From positions 1-10,903 of the forward strand of contig JAGVPN010000252.1 in assembly GCA_020052215.1 (NCBI GenBank): DNA of 10,903 bases. The letters run 5' to 3'. The DNA comes from Syntrophobacterales bacterium (GTDB lineage Bacteria > Desulfobacterota > Desulfobaccia > Desulfobaccales > 0-14-0-80-60-11). The translations under genes were made by a program, and so were the position numbers. This document shows, piece after piece, positions 2,015 to 7,917 of this stretch. Each line of letters opens with the position of its first letter. Positions within the stretch are counted from its first letter, which is position 1. Below the pieces are notes generated by a model. It had not been told where the DNA came from and made no database searches. It saw nothing but the letters and a program-made list of their open reading frames with translations.

Positions 2015-3394
2015 GTGGGGAAAGTGGTGACGCCGCGCCTGACGCTGACAACTGCCGTACCGGGCCTCACCCATCTGGTCTGGGTTATATTGTTTTTGCA
2101 ATTGCTGGGGTGCGGGCCGAGTCCGGACATTTCGCCGCCCCGGTCCATCACCTACACCTTCGATGCCCCCACCCGGGAATTAATCCGGCTCCTGGCGCAG
2201 AAGGCCAAGAGTGCCGCGTACAAAGATTTCGACCGGAACTTTAAGGGAATCCTGGTGCCGGAAAGCCTGCTCCCTTATGAGCCCTTTGTGCTGGGACTCT
2301 CCACCGAGAGCAAGATACCCGCGGTGCTGCTTCTTGACGCCCCCTGGGTCCAGCGGTACGGGGTGGCCGGGTGGCTCTATGAACTGGAACGCACCAAGGT
2401 CTTTGACCGGACGGAACTGGCGCCGTCGGTGGCGGAGGCCTTCTCCGTGTCCCTGGCCCACATCACCGGCCGGGGAGGCAAGCAGTTGGTGGCTGTGCCC
2501 ACGTACATCAAGGGCAACATCCTATTCTATCGCCGGGATATCCTGAAGCGCTACAACCTGGCGCCCCCCCGCACCTGGGAGGATCTCAGGGTGATCTGCC
2601 GCAAGGTTCTGCCCCAGGAAAAGTCTCTGAAATATGGCCTGCTTATCCACTCCACCAATACCCTGAATGATTTTTATCCGATTTTCTGGGGCTTCGGGGG
2701 CCGGATCAACGATGACGCCGGCCAGTTTGTCCTGCCCCAGAAGAACAACGCCGAGGCCTTCGTCGCGGCCCTCAAAGCGCTGATAGCCATGCAGGGGAGC
2801 ATTATTCCGGGGCCCGGGGCGCTGCCACAATTCGACCCCGGGGGGAGCCTGCGGCAGGCTTTTTACCAGGGCCAGACCCTGTTTATGATCAACTGGAGCA
2901 CCCGCCTGAAAGACTTGAGCGATTTGATTGCCAAAGGCGCGGGCCAGCCGCAGGGTCGCCTCACCAGCGTCAGCCAGGTGGGGGTGGCCCCCATCCCGGC
3001 CCAGGAGGGTCATCCGCACCGCTATTCCAACATCGGCTCTTTTGGCTGGGCCGTCAACCGCTTTTCCGTGATCGATCCGGTGGTCATCGAACATGCCAAG
3101 CGGTTTATCGGGGTGGTGGCCGGCGAGCAATTTCAGCTCCTGGCGGCGGAAACCATGGGGCAGGTGCCGTCCCTCATCCGGGCCCTGAAAAAGGTCACCA
3201 ACCAAGAAGTGTTGCAGGTGTACAATGATACCTTTGCCCAGAAAGATATGGTAATGCGCCCCCGGCCCCACAGCCGCCGGATCAACAATATACTGGAAAA
3301 AGTCCTGGATGAGGCCCTTTACGGCCGGCAAACCCCAGAAGCGGCCCTGGCTTGGGCGCTGGCGGAACTGAAAAAAGACCAAACTCCTGATTAG
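2015..3394 (+). CDS. Extracellular solute-binding protein family 1, lipoprotein
   Basis: A 459-residue periplasmic binding protein. A basic N-terminus and hydrophobic stretch (residues 18-31) end in the lipobox L-L-G-C with Cys33, so it is probably a lipid-anchored lipoprotein. Glycine at +2 gives no inner-membrane retention Asp. The body follows the family-1 (sugar/ABC type) binding-protein pattern: a LLDAPWVQRYGVAGWLYEL block; VAVPTYIKGNILFYRRDIL followed by PPRTWEDL; and a later AFYQGQTLFMINW segment. Such proteins normally deliver sugars or other small solutes to MalFG-type permeases, but none is encoded nearby. The next gene instead encodes a membrane sensor-like protein that abuts it exactly (TAG then ATG). 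GTG 2015 is one base after the previous stop; GTG 2024 or 2027, preceded by a GGGGAAA stretch, are plausible alternatives that keep the signal peptide. The ligand is unknown. Confidence 0.87.
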   Translation: MGKVVTPRLTLTTAVPGLTHLVWVILFLQLLGCGPSPDISPPRSITYTFDAPTRELIRLLAQKAKSAAYKDFDRNFKGILVPESLLPYEPFVLGLSTESKIPAVLLLDAPWVQRYGVAGWLYELERTKVFDRTELAPSVAEAFSVSLAHITGRGGKQLVAVPTYIKGNILFYRRDILKRYNLAPPRTWEDLRVICRKVLPQEKSLKYGLLIHSTNTLNDFYPIFWGFGGRINDDAGQFVLPQKNNAEAFVAALKALIAMQGSIIPGPGALPQFDPGGSLRQAFYQGQTLFMINWSTRLKDLSDLIAKGAGQPQGRLTSVSQVGVAPIPAQEGHPHRYSNIGSFGWAVNRFSVIDPVVIEHAKRFIGVVAGEQFQLLAAETMGQVPSLIRALKKVTNQEVLQVYNDTFAQKDMVMRPRPHSRRINNILEKVLDEALYGRQTPEAALAWALAELKKDQTPD

Positions 3395-5038
3395 ATGAAA
3401 ACCTCCGAGACCTTCATCCGCTATTCCCTGCGGAACCGGCTGTTCGTCCTGGCCGGGGCCACTTTCTTGTTGTGCGCCGTGGTCATCCTGCTGTTCTTCC
3501 CCCTGCTCAACCTCACCCTGGAAGGGCTCCAGAACCGCACCATCAATTCCATGAAAGAGGCCGCCGAAGTGGAGGCCACCACCATCGCCCGGCTCCTGGT
3601 CCTGGAATTTTCGTCGCTCAAGGGGTTGTTGAAGGTGACGCCGACCTCGAACACGGAGACCGATCAGTGGATCAAAGCTCTCTTGTGGGAGAAGGTCACC
3701 TTCAATGAAATCATCGAAGGGATTGAGCTGATCCAGGGGCAGAAAGACATCCAGGGCCGGCACCTGACCTACCTGTTTTATCGCCGGGATGCTCCGGAAC
3801 TGAAGCCCATGGCCGGCCCCCAAAAAATCATGAAGTCGTTTCAAGGCCTGGAACAGGACCTCATCAACAGCATTACCACGCAGCAGCGGGTGGACAACGC
3901 CATCCAGGAATCCGTCAATCGGGGGCCTAACGAAGAAGGGGAGATGCTGCGGCGCTACATGCCGGTGTATGTGCTGCTGGCGGATGAGGGGGCGGTCTTC
4001 TGGGGCGTGGCCAAAATCGGCATCGATACCGAGCGGATGCGCCAACTGCTCCTCCTTCAGAGCCAGGAGCAGACCAATATCCGCCGGAACATCTGGGTGG
4101 AGATCATTCTGAGCCTGTTCATCTCCGGGGTCCTGGCCATGAGCCTCATCTACTTCTGGGTGCGGCACATCACGGAGCCTTTAAGGACCCTCAGCATGGT
4201 GACCGCGGCTTTGAAGGGCGCCAAACCTGAAGATTTCGATCTCTGGCTGGAGAACCTGAAACGGGTGGATGCCCAGGGGCAGGCCGAGGTGGTGGTGATC
4301 CAGGAGGTCCTGGAACGACTGGGCATGGCCGTGCCCAAACTGGGGCAGCGGCTGATTGACGGGGAAGCCCGGGCCTGCCTGGGTAAAGTGATGGCCCGGG
4401 GGCTTCCGGCCCTCCAGGCCTGGCAGGCTCAATTGCCTGGTCTGGAGCAGAAACTGGGCGATGAGGGGGCCACCGGGCCGCCCCACCAGACCCTGACCTT
4501 GATGCGGGCCAGACTGGACACGGTGTTTGACGATCTCTCCCACCTCTGGTCTGACCCCGCCGGGGAGTGGAATCGCCTTGATGTTACCCCCGGGGTGCAG
4601 CGGGCCTGGCGCCTGGCGACCCTGGGGCTGCCGGCGGAGGTTACGCCGCACCAGGAGTTCGCGCCCCTGCCGCCGGTCTGGGGGTCACAGGCCAAGCTGA
4701 GCCTGGCCGCTCTCTATCTCCTGGATTTTGCGGTGGATCTGCTGCCGCCGGCCGGGGAGCTGGGTATCAAGGCGGAGCCCAGCCCCGGGGGAGGGGTGCG
4801 CCTGGCCGTCTGGGTTTCCGGGAAGCCGCGCTCTACTTTGGAGTGCCAGGGGTGGTTAAATCCGTTCGGCGATCCGGGCCGGATTCAGGGAAGCCTGGGG
4901 CCGGCCCTGGCCGCGGCCATCGCCTCCCAGCACGGCGGCAGTCTCACGGTGGCGCCCCGGGAGGGCGGCGGTGCGGTCTTTTCCCTGGAATTACCCCCTC
5001 TGGCGGCCTCAGAGGAACTTCATGAACCGGCTATTTAG
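3395..5038 (+). CDS. Two-TM HAMP protein with degenerate histidine-kinase-like C-terminus
   Basis: 547 residues. TM1 spans about residues 17-38, a periplasmic domain about 39-230, TM2 about 236-256, then a HAMP-like segment with the conserved Pro (ITEP, Pro262). Beyond it lie a helical region (about 310-400) and an ATPase-like fold. The C-terminus (499-534) has the outline of the kinase G2 box and final strands: S-L-G-P-A-L, then S-Q-H-G-G-S-L-T-V and G-G-G-A-V-F-S-L-E-L-P. Key residues are missing. The N-box region (about 435-449) reads L-Y-L-L-D-F-A where N-L-L-x-N-A is expected, no DxGxG motif is seen, and no phosphoacceptor His stands in an H-box context. It therefore looks like a pseudokinase sensor. 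It abuts the binding-protein gene and overlaps the MlaE-like permease gene by 17 bases, which suggests a binding-protein/sensor pair. Fold assignment is moderate; loss of activity is inferred by eye. Confidence 0.72.
   Translation: MKTSETFIRYSLRNRLFVLAGATFLLCAVVILLFFPLLNLTLEGLQNRTINSMKEAAEVEATTIARLLVLEFSSLKGLLKVTPTSNTETDQWIKALLWEKVTFNEIIEGIELIQGQKDIQGRHLTYLFYRRDAPELKPMAGPQKIMKSFQGLEQDLINSITTQQRVDNAIQESVNRGPNEEGEMLRRYMPVYVLLADEGAVFWGVAKIGIDTERMRQLLLLQSQEQTNIRRNIWVEIILSLFISGVLAMSLIYFWVRHITEPLRTLSMVTAALKGAKPEDFDLWLENLKRVDAQGQAEVVVIQEVLERLGMAVPKLGQRLIDGEARACLGKVMARGLPALQAWQAQLPGLEQKLGDEGATGPPHQTLTLMRARLDTVFDDLSHLWSDPAGEWNRLDVTPGVQRAWRLATLGLPAEVTPHQEFAPLPPVWGSQAKLSLAALYLLDFAVDLLPPAGELGIKAEPSPGGGVRLAVWVSGKPRSTLECQGWLNPFGDPGRIQGSLGPALAAAIASQHGGSLTVAPREGGGAVFSLELPPLAASEELHEPAI
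5011..5016 (+). promoter_or_regulatory. Ribosome-binding site fixing the MlaE-like start
   Basis: AGAGGA sits five bases before ATG 5022, inside the end of the preceding gene. It is the best Shine-Dalgarno in the cluster. It favours ATG 5022 over the longer open frame that starts at ATG 4971, whose extra residues do not resemble an MlaE N-terminus. Confidence 0.65.
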
Positions 5039-5837
5039 GGTGGTGAGGGCCCTGGAGGGGCTCCTGGGCCGGGCCTGGGGCCGGTTCGGCGCCCGGGTCT
5101 CCCTATTTCTGGACATCTGCGCCATGTTCCATCGCCTCCTCCTGGGGGCCTTCATCGGTCCCCCCTGTGTGGGCCTGCTCTTCCGGGAACTGTGCCGGCA
5201 GGTATATTTCACCGCGATGCGGCGGGCCTATATCCTGGTCTTTACGTCCCTGATGCTGGGCATGTTGGTAATCGTCCATGCCACTCAGCAACTGGTCAAG
5301 CTCCAGGGGGAGGAATTCGTCGGCTGGCTGCTGGTCACCATCGTGGTGCGGGAGGTGGGGCCGGTGTGGGCCGCGTTTTTCGTCCTGCTCAATTCCGGGG
5401 GCGCCATCACCGTGGAGATCGGCAATATGTCGATAAACCAGGAGATTCGGGCCTTGAAGATGATGGGCATCGACCCATACCGTTACCTGGGGGTGCCGCG
5501 CTTCTGGGGGATCACCATCAGCCTGCTGTGCCTCTATATCCTGTGCGTGTTCACCGCCATCATCGGGGGGTATCTCTTTGCCCAGGCCTTTGCCGAGATC
5601 TTTTGGGCCAAATTCTGGCTGTCCTTCGTCAATGCCCTGCAGTGGATTGACCTGAGCGTGGGTTTCGCCAAGACCACCATCTTTGCTATGCTCATTGCCA
5701 CCGTGTCCATCTATTTCGGCTTCAGTTGCCGCGTCAACGTGGACGAGGTGGCGCGTAATACTTCCCAGGCGGCCATCTGGAGCCTGGTGCTCATAGGGGC
5801 CACGGACATCATCCTGACCGCGGCTTATTACCTGTGA
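5022..5837 (+). CDS. MlaE-type ABC transporter permease
   Basis: A 271-residue integral membrane protein of the MlaE/YrbE permease family, the inner-membrane part of phospholipid and hydrophobic-compound transporters in diderm bacteria (MlaFEDB type). Diagnostic segments are VREVGPVWAAF (about 109-119), a stretch aligning with the family's glycine/serine-rich GRxGSA segment but reading NSGGAITVEIGNM (124-136), INQEIRALKMMGIDPYRYL (138-156), and the C-terminal VDEVARNTSQAAIWSLVLI followed by a membrane-embedded TDIILT. About five to six membrane helices are likely, preceded by an amphipathic N-terminal region. An active partner needs an MlaF ATPase and usually an MlaD-type MCE protein. Here the downstream gene is ATPase-like but catalytically degenerate, and no MCE gene is in view. 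ATG 5022 is chosen because of the AGAGGA ribosome-binding site; it overlaps the upstream gene by 17 bases. Family assignment is strong; the cargo is unknown. Confidence 0.9.
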   Translation: MNRLFRVVRALEGLLGRAWGRFGARVSLFLDICAMFHRLLLGAFIGPPCVGLLFRELCRQVYFTAMRRAYILVFTSLMLGMLVIVHATQQLVKLQGEEFVGWLLVTIVVREVGPVWAAFFVLLNSGGAITVEIGNMSINQEIRALKMMGIDPYRYLGVPRFWGITISLLCLYILCVFTAIIGGYLFAQAFAEIFWAKFWLSFVNALQWIDLSVGFAKTTIFAMLIATVSIYFGFSCRVNVDEVARNTSQAAIWSLVLIGATDIILTAAYYL

Positions 5838-5867: not shown

Positions 5868-5872
5868 AAAGG
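5868..5872 (+). promoter_or_regulatory. Ribosome-binding site of the MlaF-like gene
   Basis: AAAGG lies five bases before ATG 5878, which is the only usual start codon after the in-frame TGA at 5860-5862. Confidence 0.5.
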
Positions 5873-5877
5873 CGCCT

Positions 5878-6597
5878 ATGCTGCACCATGCCTTGAATCT
5901 GGATATGGTCACCCTGCCGCGAGATAGCGCCTGGCCCGGGCCCCTGTCCCTGGCGGTGGCCTTCAACGAGGTCGTGCTCATTGAAGGGGCCGGGTTGGCG
6001 GAGAGCTTGCCGTTGCTGGACGTGGCGGCTACGCTCGCCTCCCCGGCGTCTGGCCACGTCCGCCATTGGGGTCGGGACGCGGCCCTGCGGCGCCGGGAAA
6101 AGCTCTACCGCCTCCGGCGCCGCATCGCCTATATCTCACCCCGGCAGGTGCTGCTGCACCTCATTACCCTGGGTGAGAATATCGCCCTGGGCCCCTGTTA
6201 TTACCAGGGATGCTCGGAAGCGGAGGCTTTAGCCCCCCACGCCGACTTGCTGGAACTCCTGGGACTTAACACCCATCTAACCCAGTACCCGCCCCAGGTG
6301 TCCGCCGCCATCTATGCCCGGGCGGTGTGGGCCCGGGAACTGGTAAAAGGGCCGGAGTTGATCCTGGCGGTGATCGAAGGCGACCTCGCCACCACCGCCG
6401 GGGCCGCCAGGCTGGCCCACGTCCTCCGGGATCATCTGGCCCGGAACGGGGCCGCCGCCTTGTTGCTGGGCGAGTCCCTGGAAGCCTTTTACCCCCTGGG
6501 GCATCGGCTCTTCAGGCTGGAAGCGGGGCAACTCCGCAAACAGACGATCCTGGAACACCGGGCCCGCCCCCTGACGGCTTACCTGCCCCTGATATGA
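5878..6597 (+). CDS. MlaF-like ABC ATPase homologue lacking all catalytic motifs (pseudo-ATPase)
   Basis: 239 residues. The chain keeps the order and spacing of an ABC ATPase of the MlaF kind, but the nucleotide-handling residues are replaced. Walker A is E-G-A-G-L-A-E-S (36-43), with Glu42 where Lys is required. The Q-loop region reads AYISPRQVLLHLITLGENI (84-102), matching the family around T-x-x-E-N but with Pro88 at the Gln position. The signature is V-S-A-A (141-144) instead of LSGG, followed by a recognisable YARAVWARELVKGPELIL. Walker B reads L-A-V-I-E, with no Asp-Glu pair at the usual place. The H-loop has Glu199 (LLLGES) for His. The frame is intact and GC-rich like its neighbours, so this is not simple decay. 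The start ATG 5878 follows AAAGG (5868-5872), and an in-frame TGA at 5860 excludes anything longer. It lies 40 bases after the MlaE-like permease, its likely partner. Confidence 0.72.
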   Translation: MLHHALNLDMVTLPRDSAWPGPLSLAVAFNEVVLIEGAGLAESLPLLDVAATLASPASGHVRHWGRDAALRRREKLYRLRRRIAYISPRQVLLHLITLGENIALGPCYYQGCSEAEALAPHADLLELLGLNTHLTQYPPQVSAAIYARAVWARELVKGPELILAVIEGDLATTAGAARLAHVLRDHLARNGAAALLLGESLEAFYPLGHRLFRLEAGQLRKQTILEHRARPLTAYLPLI

Positions 6598-7181
6598 CCA
6601 TGATGAGCAAGTTATCATTTAAGAAGATCATTTTCTACTTGATGTTGATTATTATTCCATTAATAGCCATTGAGTTAGGCTTGCGGATTTTCTTTGCAGT
6701 GAAGGTAAGTCCAAACGTAATGTTATTTGGTACTCCATGGTTTAATACCAAATGGCAGCAAAAATTTGATGACAGGGGCTATTCATTAAGAAAAGCTAAG
6801 AAGGAAAAAGCCAATGTCATGTGGCACGATAATTATCTAAATAATTATTCCAAATATTACCCGCGAGAAGAACGCACTGATCATGATGAGAATGGAGATA
6901 AATTTGTCATCAAGATGAACAACATGGGGTTTAGAGGCCCTGATTTCACTTATAAAAAGGAAGTAGGCACTATAAGAATTATCACTTTGGGAGCGTCCTC
7001 CACCTTTGGATATCGTGATAGAGACAATGAAACTTATCCATATTACTTACAAGAGTTCCTAAATCAGAAGTTAGGAGAAAAAAGTTGCGGGGATATTAAG
7101 CACTTTGAAGTACTAAACCTGGGCATTCCACACTTGCGGGCTGAGAATATTTACTCCTTAGTTCATGCAAGAAGTCCTTAA
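6594..7181 (+). CDS. SGNH/GDSL hydrolase-like protein, N-terminal part (gene split by frameshift)
   Basis: 195 residues. A single N-terminal membrane anchor (about residues 10-32) precedes a domain starting with the motif N-N-M-G-F-R-G-P-D, then I-I-T-L-G-A-S-S-T-F-G (nucleophile block I; Ser135 in G-A-S replaces the textbook GDS). Asn175-Leu-Gly177 stands at block II. SGNH enzymes are esterases or acyl transferases, often acting on surface polysaccharides. The frame ends abruptly at 7181, just where the conserved fold should continue, and the rest of the domain is found in the next frame from 7165. ATG 6594 overlaps the previous stop as ATGA, which suggests translational coupling; ATG 6600 and 6603 are alternatives. 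Base composition is much more AT-rich than in the flanking genes, which suggests acquisition by transfer. The product alone should be non-functional. Confidence 0.72.
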   Translation: MTMMSKLSFKKIIFYLMLIIIPLIAIELGLRIFFAVKVSPNVMLFGTPWFNTKWQQKFDDRGYSLRKAKKEKANVMWHDNYLNNYSKYYPREERTDHDENGDKFVIKMNNMGFRGPDFTYKKEVGTIRIITLGASSTFGYRDRDNETYPYYLQEFLNQKLGEKSCGDIKHFEVLNLGIPHLRAENIYSLVHARSP

Positions 7182-7917
7182 GTTTAACCCAGATGTGGTC
7201 ACGTTTTATGAAGGGTCCAATGACGTAGATCTTGACCAACGATCCATTACAAAAAAACTTATGCGTAACAGATATTTAAGCTTTGTGCCGGCAATCTACC
7301 AGGAATTGCGTCTACGTCTCATCTTTCTGGCAGCGGTGGCGGAAGTTGTCAATACGAAATTGATAAAATACAAATCATCCGATTTGATTGAAGATCATTA
7401 TAACGCTAAGAACAGATCCGCCGGCAAAGCCGATGAACAGATATCCTCTGTCACTGATGTCGATAATAAAATTTATCAACAAAATACGGCAATGTTTGCT
7501 TCCTTTATAAGTTATTTAGAGATGATTCGTAACGAATGCAGAGGGCGTCAAATATTGTTCATAGTGGCCAATCAGCAAGGGTCATCCTACTCTTTCCCGA
7601 GAGAAAAACTCAAAGGAATGTCGTATGAACAAGAAGTTAACTTTATTAAAAAACGGTTAATCAATCATAATAACATTAGCCGTCACCAGCTCTATTTATT
7701 AGGACACGCCGCCTTGAACCAAAGGATTAAAGGTTGGGCCTCTGAGAACCAGGTAATCTTCGTCGATGTCATCAATGCCCTGGATCAAGACCGGGACACC
7801 ATCTTATCATGGGTGCATCTATCTCCCCGGGGCAACCGGATTATCGCCAATGAATTCGCCAACACCATATTCAACCGGCTGTGTCGGGATAACCCCAAGC
7901 AGGCCGAAGCGAAGTAA
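7165..7917 (+). CDS. SGNH/GDSL hydrolase-like protein, C-terminal part (gene split by frameshift)
   Basis: 250 residues from ATG 7165, but probably the continuation of the preceding frame rather than a separate gene. There is no Shine-Dalgarno, and its first residues (QEVLKFNPDVVTFYEGSND) continue the fold of the upstream part. It holds block III G-S-N-D (17-20) and block V W-V-H-L-S-P-R-G-N (His218). The catalytic Asp expected three residues before that His is Ser215 (TCA at 7807-7809). Removing one base near 7160-7170 would join the two parts into one protein of roughly 440 residues. The gene is AT-rich through most of its length, becoming more GC-rich from about 7735. A true one-base insertion, a sequencing error or, less likely, programmed frameshifting could explain the break; the Asp loss favours real decay. 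Confidence 0.68.
   Translation: MQEVLKFNPDVVTFYEGSNDVDLDQRSITKKLMRNRYLSFVPAIYQELRLRLIFLAAVAEVVNTKLIKYKSSDLIEDHYNAKNRSAGKADEQISSVTDVDNKIYQQNTAMFASFISYLEMIRNECRGRQILFIVANQQGSSYSFPREKLKGMSYEQEVNFIKKRLINHNNISRHQLYLLGHAALNQRIKGWASENQVIFVDVINALDQDRDTILSWVHLSPRGNRIIANEFANTIFNRLCRDNPKQAEAK

Follow-up and report, generated by a model that had tools for sequence, protein, structure and literature searches.

The DNA analyzed here, hereafter the window, is the 10,903-nucleotide contig JAGVPN010000252.1 of a Syntrophobacterales bacterium (assembly GCA_020052215.1; order Desulfobaccales, phylum Desulfobacterota), and corresponds to contig C127 of a genome that we denote G000 (2.83 Mb, 73% complete, 514 contigs). 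Our subject is the gene that directly follows an MlaE-type permease gene in it and encodes a degenerate relative of the ABC ATPase MlaF, to which we refer as the pseudo-NBD (NBD, nucleotide-binding domain). The genes and open reading frames are as follows:

1-555, + strand: 3' end of a TPR protein gene (223 bits to the TPR gene behind the cognate MCE gene in genome G007)
697-2013, + strand: PUCC-family MFS transporter (220 bits)
2015-3394, + strand: extracellular solute-binding lipoprotein (SBP_bac_1, 60 bits; LLGC lipobox read by eye)
3395-5038, + strand: degenerate membrane histidine-kinase-like protein of 547 residues, kinase-like at its C-terminus
5022-5837, + strand: MlaE-type permease (PF02405, 183 bits against a cut-off of 22.5)
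5878-6597, + strand: the pseudo-NBD, a degenerate MlaF-like ABC ATPase of 239 residues
8173-10851: open reading frame of 892 residues, read by eye as valyl-tRNA synthetase

The pseudo-NBD frame is uninterrupted, starts with ATG and carries AAAGG at positions 5868-5872, 5 nt ahead of that start, as an earlier note on this DNA had read it (an intact frame with a ribosome-binding site). Pfam ABC_tran scores the protein at 17.2 bits, under the 25-bit cut-off, and NCBIfam ABC-ATPase models cover most of it, all under their cut-offs (the DevA family at E 8e-19), while its sequence matches in the PDB are MacB, FtsE and LolD. A single-chain AlphaFold2 model (per-residue confidence, pLDDT, 89.8) folds as an ABC NBD, the fold that the earlier note had predicted, and its closest structural match is E. 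coli MlaF, tied with LolD. The C-terminal tail is short, with a helix at residues 232-238 predicted at low confidence; it bears a PLxxYLPL sequence that is nearly invariant among close relatives, and model confidence in this tail is about 51. On alignment the catalytic motifs of the fold fall at the following positions:

5986-6009, + strand: former Walker A, residues 37-44 (GAGLAESL), with Ser43 in the Lys column, by alignment to intact MlaF-type NBDs
6139-6141, + strand: former Q-loop Gln, now Pro88 (Pro in 113 of 121 aligned proteins)
6298-6309, + strand: former LSGG signature, now VSAA, residues 141-144
6370-6375, + strand: former Walker B Asp-Glu, now Val165-Ile166
6472-6474, + strand: former H-loop His, now Glu199

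The losses claimed from the sequence at the Q-loop, signature, Walker B and H-loop are thus confirmed residue by residue. That of the Walker A Lys holds as well, although it had been placed one residue off, at Glu42, which aligns to the Gly preceding the Lys column.

These losses are not peculiar to the window. We aligned the protein (P0001) with the 120 matches listed out of 248, which are 70-99% identical to it (P0115 and P0121 over only 76-78%). Among these matches listed, neither a GxxGxGK[ST] motif, nor a Walker B Asp-Glu, nor a His at 198-200 occurs in any of the 121 proteins, and the string SGG is found anywhere in only two. A further search with profile A2 returned 415 matches, with few new entries among the 120 listed; two of the homologues bear NCBI names of Desulfobaccales metagenome-assembled genomes. 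In a search of 59 genomes with a 23-row profile, orthologues scored at least 150 bits in 14, the next match reaching 83 bits. The carriers make up two families of the window's order, of which 29 genomes were sampled. The Walker A Lys, Gln, SGG and Asp-Glu are lost in all 14 orthologues, with an isolated His in the H-loop column of G010. The frame is still open throughout the order, and proteins from other genera than that of the window are 34-55% identical to the window copy. Degeneration of this single copy beside intact orthologues is thereby ruled out, and the motif losses, whose conservation the earlier note had proposed to test, prove to be shared.

The ratio of nonsynonymous to synonymous divergence (dN/dS), calculated within the genus by simple pairwise Nei-Gojobori counting, a test that the earlier note had called for, was 0.26-0.55 and below 1 in 10 of 10 pairs. 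Corresponding values were 0.20-0.44 for MlaE, 0.20-0.35 for the kinase-like protein and 0.27-0.38 for the solute-binding protein (6 pairs each), and 0.21-0.25 for the PUCC transporter (3 pairs). The pseudo-NBD is under purifying selection, somewhat relaxed. The window's own bin, G000, has on contig C16 (L065) a second MlaE (96% identical over 183 residues) and a second pseudo-NBD (82%), the latter by dN nearer to those of G001 and G002 than to the window copy; the pair is a duplicate, or else the contig comes from a sister species.

The gene is inherited together with a defined set of partners. A close MlaE (at least 182 bits) occurs in the same 14 of 29 order genomes, the best match outside them, in another family of the phylum, reaching 137 bits; the solute-binding protein scores at least 388 bits in the same 14 and at most 64 in all others, and the N-terminal part of the kinase-like protein is found in these 14 as well. 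The pseudo-NBD gene directly follows that of MlaE in 10 of the 14 genomes. The pseudo-NBD gene of G007 and that of G010 have an MCE and a TPR gene beside them, and a profile search placed the cognate MCE protein in 13 of the 14 carriers with scores of at least 330 bits, against at most 157 bits in the 10 genomes searched of the 15 in the order without a pseudo-NBD. The sole gap is the window's own incomplete genome, where the contig ends inside the homologous TPR gene; its MCE gene probably lies beyond the contig end.

To place these loci within the phylum we used an even sample of 395 Desulfobacterota genomes out of a larger group, scoring no more than 6 or 7 candidates in each. A profile of the window-type MlaE matched 57 of the 395 at E <= 1e-55. 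The two lowest-scoring (G246 and G373) have intact NBDs and grouped with canonical MlaEs, leaving 55 clade genomes. Neighbourhoods were fetched for all 57, and for G002, G027, G028 and G118. In a maximum-likelihood tree the 58 clade MlaE rows (the 55 plus G002, G027 and G028) were split from all 8 intact rows with support of 100/100. In 43 of the 58 loci an NBD gene is located no more than 400 bp away on the same strand. The other 15 are accounted for by contig ends (G046, G197, G220), intervening genes or gaps (G083, G173, G115), overlapping open reading frame calls (G090, G305), four genomes of genus g10 and three family f26 genomes without an NBD. MCE genes are present in 39 and TPR genes in 27 of the fetched stretches, and the loci are mostly MlaE-NBD-MCE operons.

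Fifty-five clade NBDs could be compared. None has an intact SGG, and only 2 have the H-loop His; Asp-Glu persists in 9, the Walker B Asp in 28, the Gln in 16 and a laxly defined Walker A in 22, whereas all five catalytic features are gone in 28. Families f20, f32 and f40 keep Walker A and the Gln, with Asp-Glu in 9 of 11 members, and have LSLG- or LSLE-type signatures and no H-loop His; f17 and f52 keep Walker A and not Asp-Glu; and Walker A is lost in f18, G159, f51 and the window's order. This count leaves out C16, G123 (whose nearby NBDs are unrelated), the intact outgroup NBDs of G246 and G373, and six reference NBDs; G176, G197 and G223 have no NBD within the fetched stretch. In G046, G118 and the four g10 genomes the NBD is sited apart from MlaE, on another contig or elsewhere, and was assigned by similarity (no MlaE was found in G118), and that of G220 comes from a second contig, which also bears an MlaE end. 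Absence of Walker A requires at least four changes on the MlaE tree. The simplest reading of these sequences, set against eight outgroup rows, is that the signature and H-loop would have been lost in the clade ancestor and the rest would have decayed in parallel.

Two groups of loci depart from the common layout. In the f26 genomes G176, G123 and G223 (L163, L165, L170) the clade MlaE gene stands between an MBL-fold gene and a fructose-1,6-bisphosphatase gene, with neither an MlaF-like NBD nor an MCE gene beside it in the fetched stretch (the nearby NBD genes of G123 are on the opposite strand); as only neighbourhoods were examined, we do not use these as proof of total NBD loss. In G143, G240 and G372 (L149, L151, L152) an MlaE-NBD-MCE-TPR operon is followed by an intact response-regulator/kinase gene (identified with Pfam in G143 only), and the G143 operon is preceded by SLH-domain and weakly LPP20-like genes.

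A conservation profile of nine divergent pseudo-NBDs (protein mean 0.39) shows which parts of the degenerate protein are held constant. The former Walker A (0.31), signature (0.24) and Walker B (0.18) lie below the mean, and the stretches before (0.69), at (0.52) and after (0.58) the Q-loop and after the signature (0.70) lie above it, whereas in intact MlaFs the Walker A, signature, Walker B and H-loop are conserved at 0.68-0.87. In the Mla transporter the MlaE coupling helix binds MlaF (PMC7790496), and in ABC exporters the Q-loop region touches the transmembrane domains (PMC7756269). From the conserved stretches together with these contacts elsewhere, we infer that the pseudo-NBD is retained for contact with its permease.

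Based on the ABC fold, the loss of catalytic residues, dN/dS below 1, the co-inheritance and the clade-wide decay, we lean towards the view that the pseudo-NBD serves an MlaE-MCE lipid-transport complex as a conserved pseudo-ATPase subunit, and that ATP hydrolyzed at this subunit no longer drives the complex. The degenerate orthologues, the fold and dN/dS likewise support the earlier note's proposal of a pseudo-ATPase with a retained non-catalytic function, paired with an MlaE permease. That the defect is common to the whole MlaE clade, that the kinase-like neighbour is also degenerate and that an MCE gene belongs to the set goes beyond what had been proposed. In such a complex two copies of the pseudo-NBD would dock on the coupling helices of the MlaE dimer, as MlaF does, and hold or gate MlaE, and lipid would move between the membranes by way of MlaE and the MCE ring, following its gradient or drawn by a periplasmic acceptor. 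Opening might be set by the neighbouring binding protein and degenerate kinase, or the neighbouring MFS protein might power transport. The homodimer, its docking, ATP independence, the direction of transport and the substrate are all points that we infer, and the data suggest an MlaE-MCE system that is ATP-independent, otherwise energized or sensory. A bolder proposal, which we offer tentatively and at just short of even chances, is that the whole Desulfobacterota MlaE-MCE clade gave up ATP hydrolysis. The signature and H-loop would have gone first, in or before the clade ancestor, and Walker B and Walker A then repeatedly. The end point, reached in the window's order, would be a motor reduced to scaffolding and linked with a binding lipoprotein and a dead kinase, the ABC-derived lipid conduit being passive, externally energized or ligand-gated.

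A number of observations weigh against an ATP-independent complex of this kind. In sequence the pseudo-NBD is closer to MacB, DevA and FtsE than to MlaF, it evolves faster than its partner genes as judged by dN/dS, and in 4 of 14 genomes (genus g10) its gene is far from the MlaE cluster, where the MFS, solute-binding protein, kinase and MlaE genes are still together (across two contigs in G027). Clade members that keep Walker A, the Gln and Asp-Glu could, judging from these residues, still bind or hydrolyze ATP. The former H-loop stretch of the pseudo-NBDs is conserved above the mean (0.57 versus 0.39), and intact MlaFs also conserve the stretches after the Q-loop (0.72) and the signature (0.63), so that Walker A, the signature and Walker B are the only places where conservation has clearly shifted. 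E. coli MlaF with Walker A or Walker B mutations (K47, E170) fails to complement (PMC7367683), and the pseudo-NBD aligns without residues equivalent to either. Lipid transfer from MlaD to MlaC without ATP has been reported, and a later study is said to show ATP hydrolysis preventing this transfer (both in PMC10212509). In the literature searched we came upon no direct precedent for MlaE working without ATP, and no description of a degenerate MlaF, or of an MlaE system without an active ATPase, in the open-access literature (bioRxiv preprints and most subscription papers lying outside it).

The neighbouring kinase-like protein raises another idea, that the system would be a sensor rather than a transporter. 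Here MlaE, the pseudo-NBD and MCE protein would read the lipid state of the envelope. Together with the binding lipoprotein and degenerate kinase they would then relay it, as a conformational signal, to a regulator encoded elsewhere, in loose analogy to ABC-transporter/kinase pairs such as BceABS. The model of the kinase-like protein (pLDDT 75; overall confidence, pTM, 0.51) has the form of a membrane sensor with long helices and a kinase catalytic domain, and Foldseek matched it to the histidine kinases ZraS, DivL and HK853 and to a BceAB-S chain, as partial matches with low whole-chain TM-scores. Its catalytic domain can be aligned to three intact kinases of other clade operons (E 3.5e-12). 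All 11 orthologues aligned, from 11 of the 14 carrier genomes, have Phe or Tyr in place of the N-box Asn and lack the G1-box Asp, both nucleotide-binding residues. We saw no H-box in the protein, the phospho-acceptor His appearing by eye to be Pro in a stretch outside the profile alignment, and a MAFFT alignment seems to misplace this box. By these residues the protein would be a second degenerate ATPase in the same operon. Its kinase fold, its presence in the same 14 genomes and the intact response-regulator/kinase gene behind the TPR gene in G143, G240 and G372 speak for a sensor. However, the flanking genes scanned in G058, G044, G043 and G146 encode dUTPase, BrkB, LonB, SpoIID or DsbD-like proteins or have no match, so that a sensor does not accompany the clade throughout, and the MCE protein belongs to a type known to transport lipid. 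We therefore regard a purely sensory system as rather unlikely.

The pseudo-NBD might also form an asymmetric pair on the MlaE dimer with one active MlaF from another operon. Pairs of a degenerate and a catalytic site are well known in ABC exporters (PMC7756269), part of the clade retains Walker A, and the window's own genome has four intact MlaF-type NBDs. These NBDs form a clean class (at least 335 bits, the next match reaching 176), and each adjoins its own MlaE gene in the three genomes considered: 4 of 4 in G000, 4 of 4 in G024 (a single contig of 3,282,536 bases) and 1 of 1 in G044. No spare MlaF-type NBD for the extra MlaE was found in any of the three (G000 being 73% complete), and a borrowed subunit would have to suit MlaEs that differ widely, identity between that of the window and its four paralogues being 21-27%. 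Since every MlaF-type ATPase found in these genomes adjoins its own MlaE, a heterodimer is disfavoured, and we consider such a pair improbable. Among the three roles put forward in the earlier note, a structural or regulatory subunit fits best, and half of a heterodimer with an active MlaF is the less likely one.

Less probable by far is that the pseudo-NBD still uses nucleotide at a non-canonical site, for example as a conformational switch that binds it and does not hydrolyze it. Walker A persists in part of the clade and Asp-Glu in 9 of the 55 NBDs, and within the order the former H-loop stretch is still fairly well conserved (0.57), but the window's lineage has lost the P-loop Lys, Gln and Asp-Glu, and three of the stretches that once formed motifs now rank with the least conserved parts of the protein. 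Finally, despite its faster pace of evolution relative to its neighbours, the gene is almost certainly not a decaying pseudogene, given a frame that is open across the order, 121 aligned homologues and dN/dS below 1 in every pair, and an assembly artefact is ruled out on the same grounds.

Returning to the subunit that we favour and its surroundings, the PUCC family is named for photosynthesis assembly proteins, and the window's lineage is one that we take to be non-phototrophic. Upstream of the MFS gene, other loci of the order carry a conserved three-gene block (e.g. L055:593-3968 and L011:1197-4521) that includes a GT4 glycosyltransferase. One protein of the L055 block weakly resembles glucosyl-3-phosphoglycerate synthase (52.8 bits, where the cut-off is 262), and we rejected naming a substrate from this block, the similarity being too weak. 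Downstream of the pseudo-NBD, positions ~6600-7917 code for an SGNH-hydrolase-like protein split over two frames (open reading frames ending at 7181 and starting at 7165), and GC content falls to about 0.38-0.41 across 6501-7500; the gene, which lies ahead of the valS-like gene, is possibly a recent, frameshifted acquisition.

The usual expectation for ABC transporters is that at least one site stays catalytic, and a system whose only linked NBD is dead would breach it. As the need for ATP and the direction of lipid movement in MCE/Mla systems are disputed, a clade with a motor decaying stepwise and with MlaE and MCE retained amounts to a natural experiment, supplying half-dead and dead motor homologues for comparison with intact ones. 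Surveys that find MlaF by motif or Pfam cut-off may score such loci as MlaDE without an ATPase. In one large Mla survey MlaF was found by profile and synteny, its annotation was called uncertain and MlaDE clusters were also used (PMC10665443), so degenerate MlaFs could be hidden among these clusters.

Compared with known systems, the pseudo-NBD shares the NBD fold of the MlaF of MlaFEDB and differs from it in having no catalytic motif and a short C-terminal tail, which may or may not form the handshake made by the C-terminal extension of MlaF; MlaFEDB also includes the STAS protein MlaB, whereas no STAS domain was found among the seven window proteins scanned. The minimal Mla system of Veillonella (MlaEFD) is likewise an MlaE-F-D set without MlaA, MlaB and MlaC, although its MlaF, as described there, closely resembles the MlaFs of model bacteria (PMC10665443). 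In heterodimeric ABC exporters with a degenerate site, such as TM287/288 and Pdr5, a Walker A Lys, Walker B Glu or H-loop His is lost, as in the pseudo-NBD, from an NBD that is still folded; these transporters keep one catalytic site each, whereas no catalytic partner NBD was found linked to MlaE here. LetAB, with its membrane protein LetA, is an MCE system without an ATPase of its own, and PqiABC resembles the window system in the same respect. Both use a LetA/PqiA-type membrane protein, in contrast to the MlaE (PF02405) permease of the window, where a motor-shaped subunit is still present. BceABS, an ABC transporter linked to a membrane kinase, matches the window set in combining a transporter with a membrane kinase-fold protein, but its permease is of a different family, and here both the ATPase and the kinase sites look dead.
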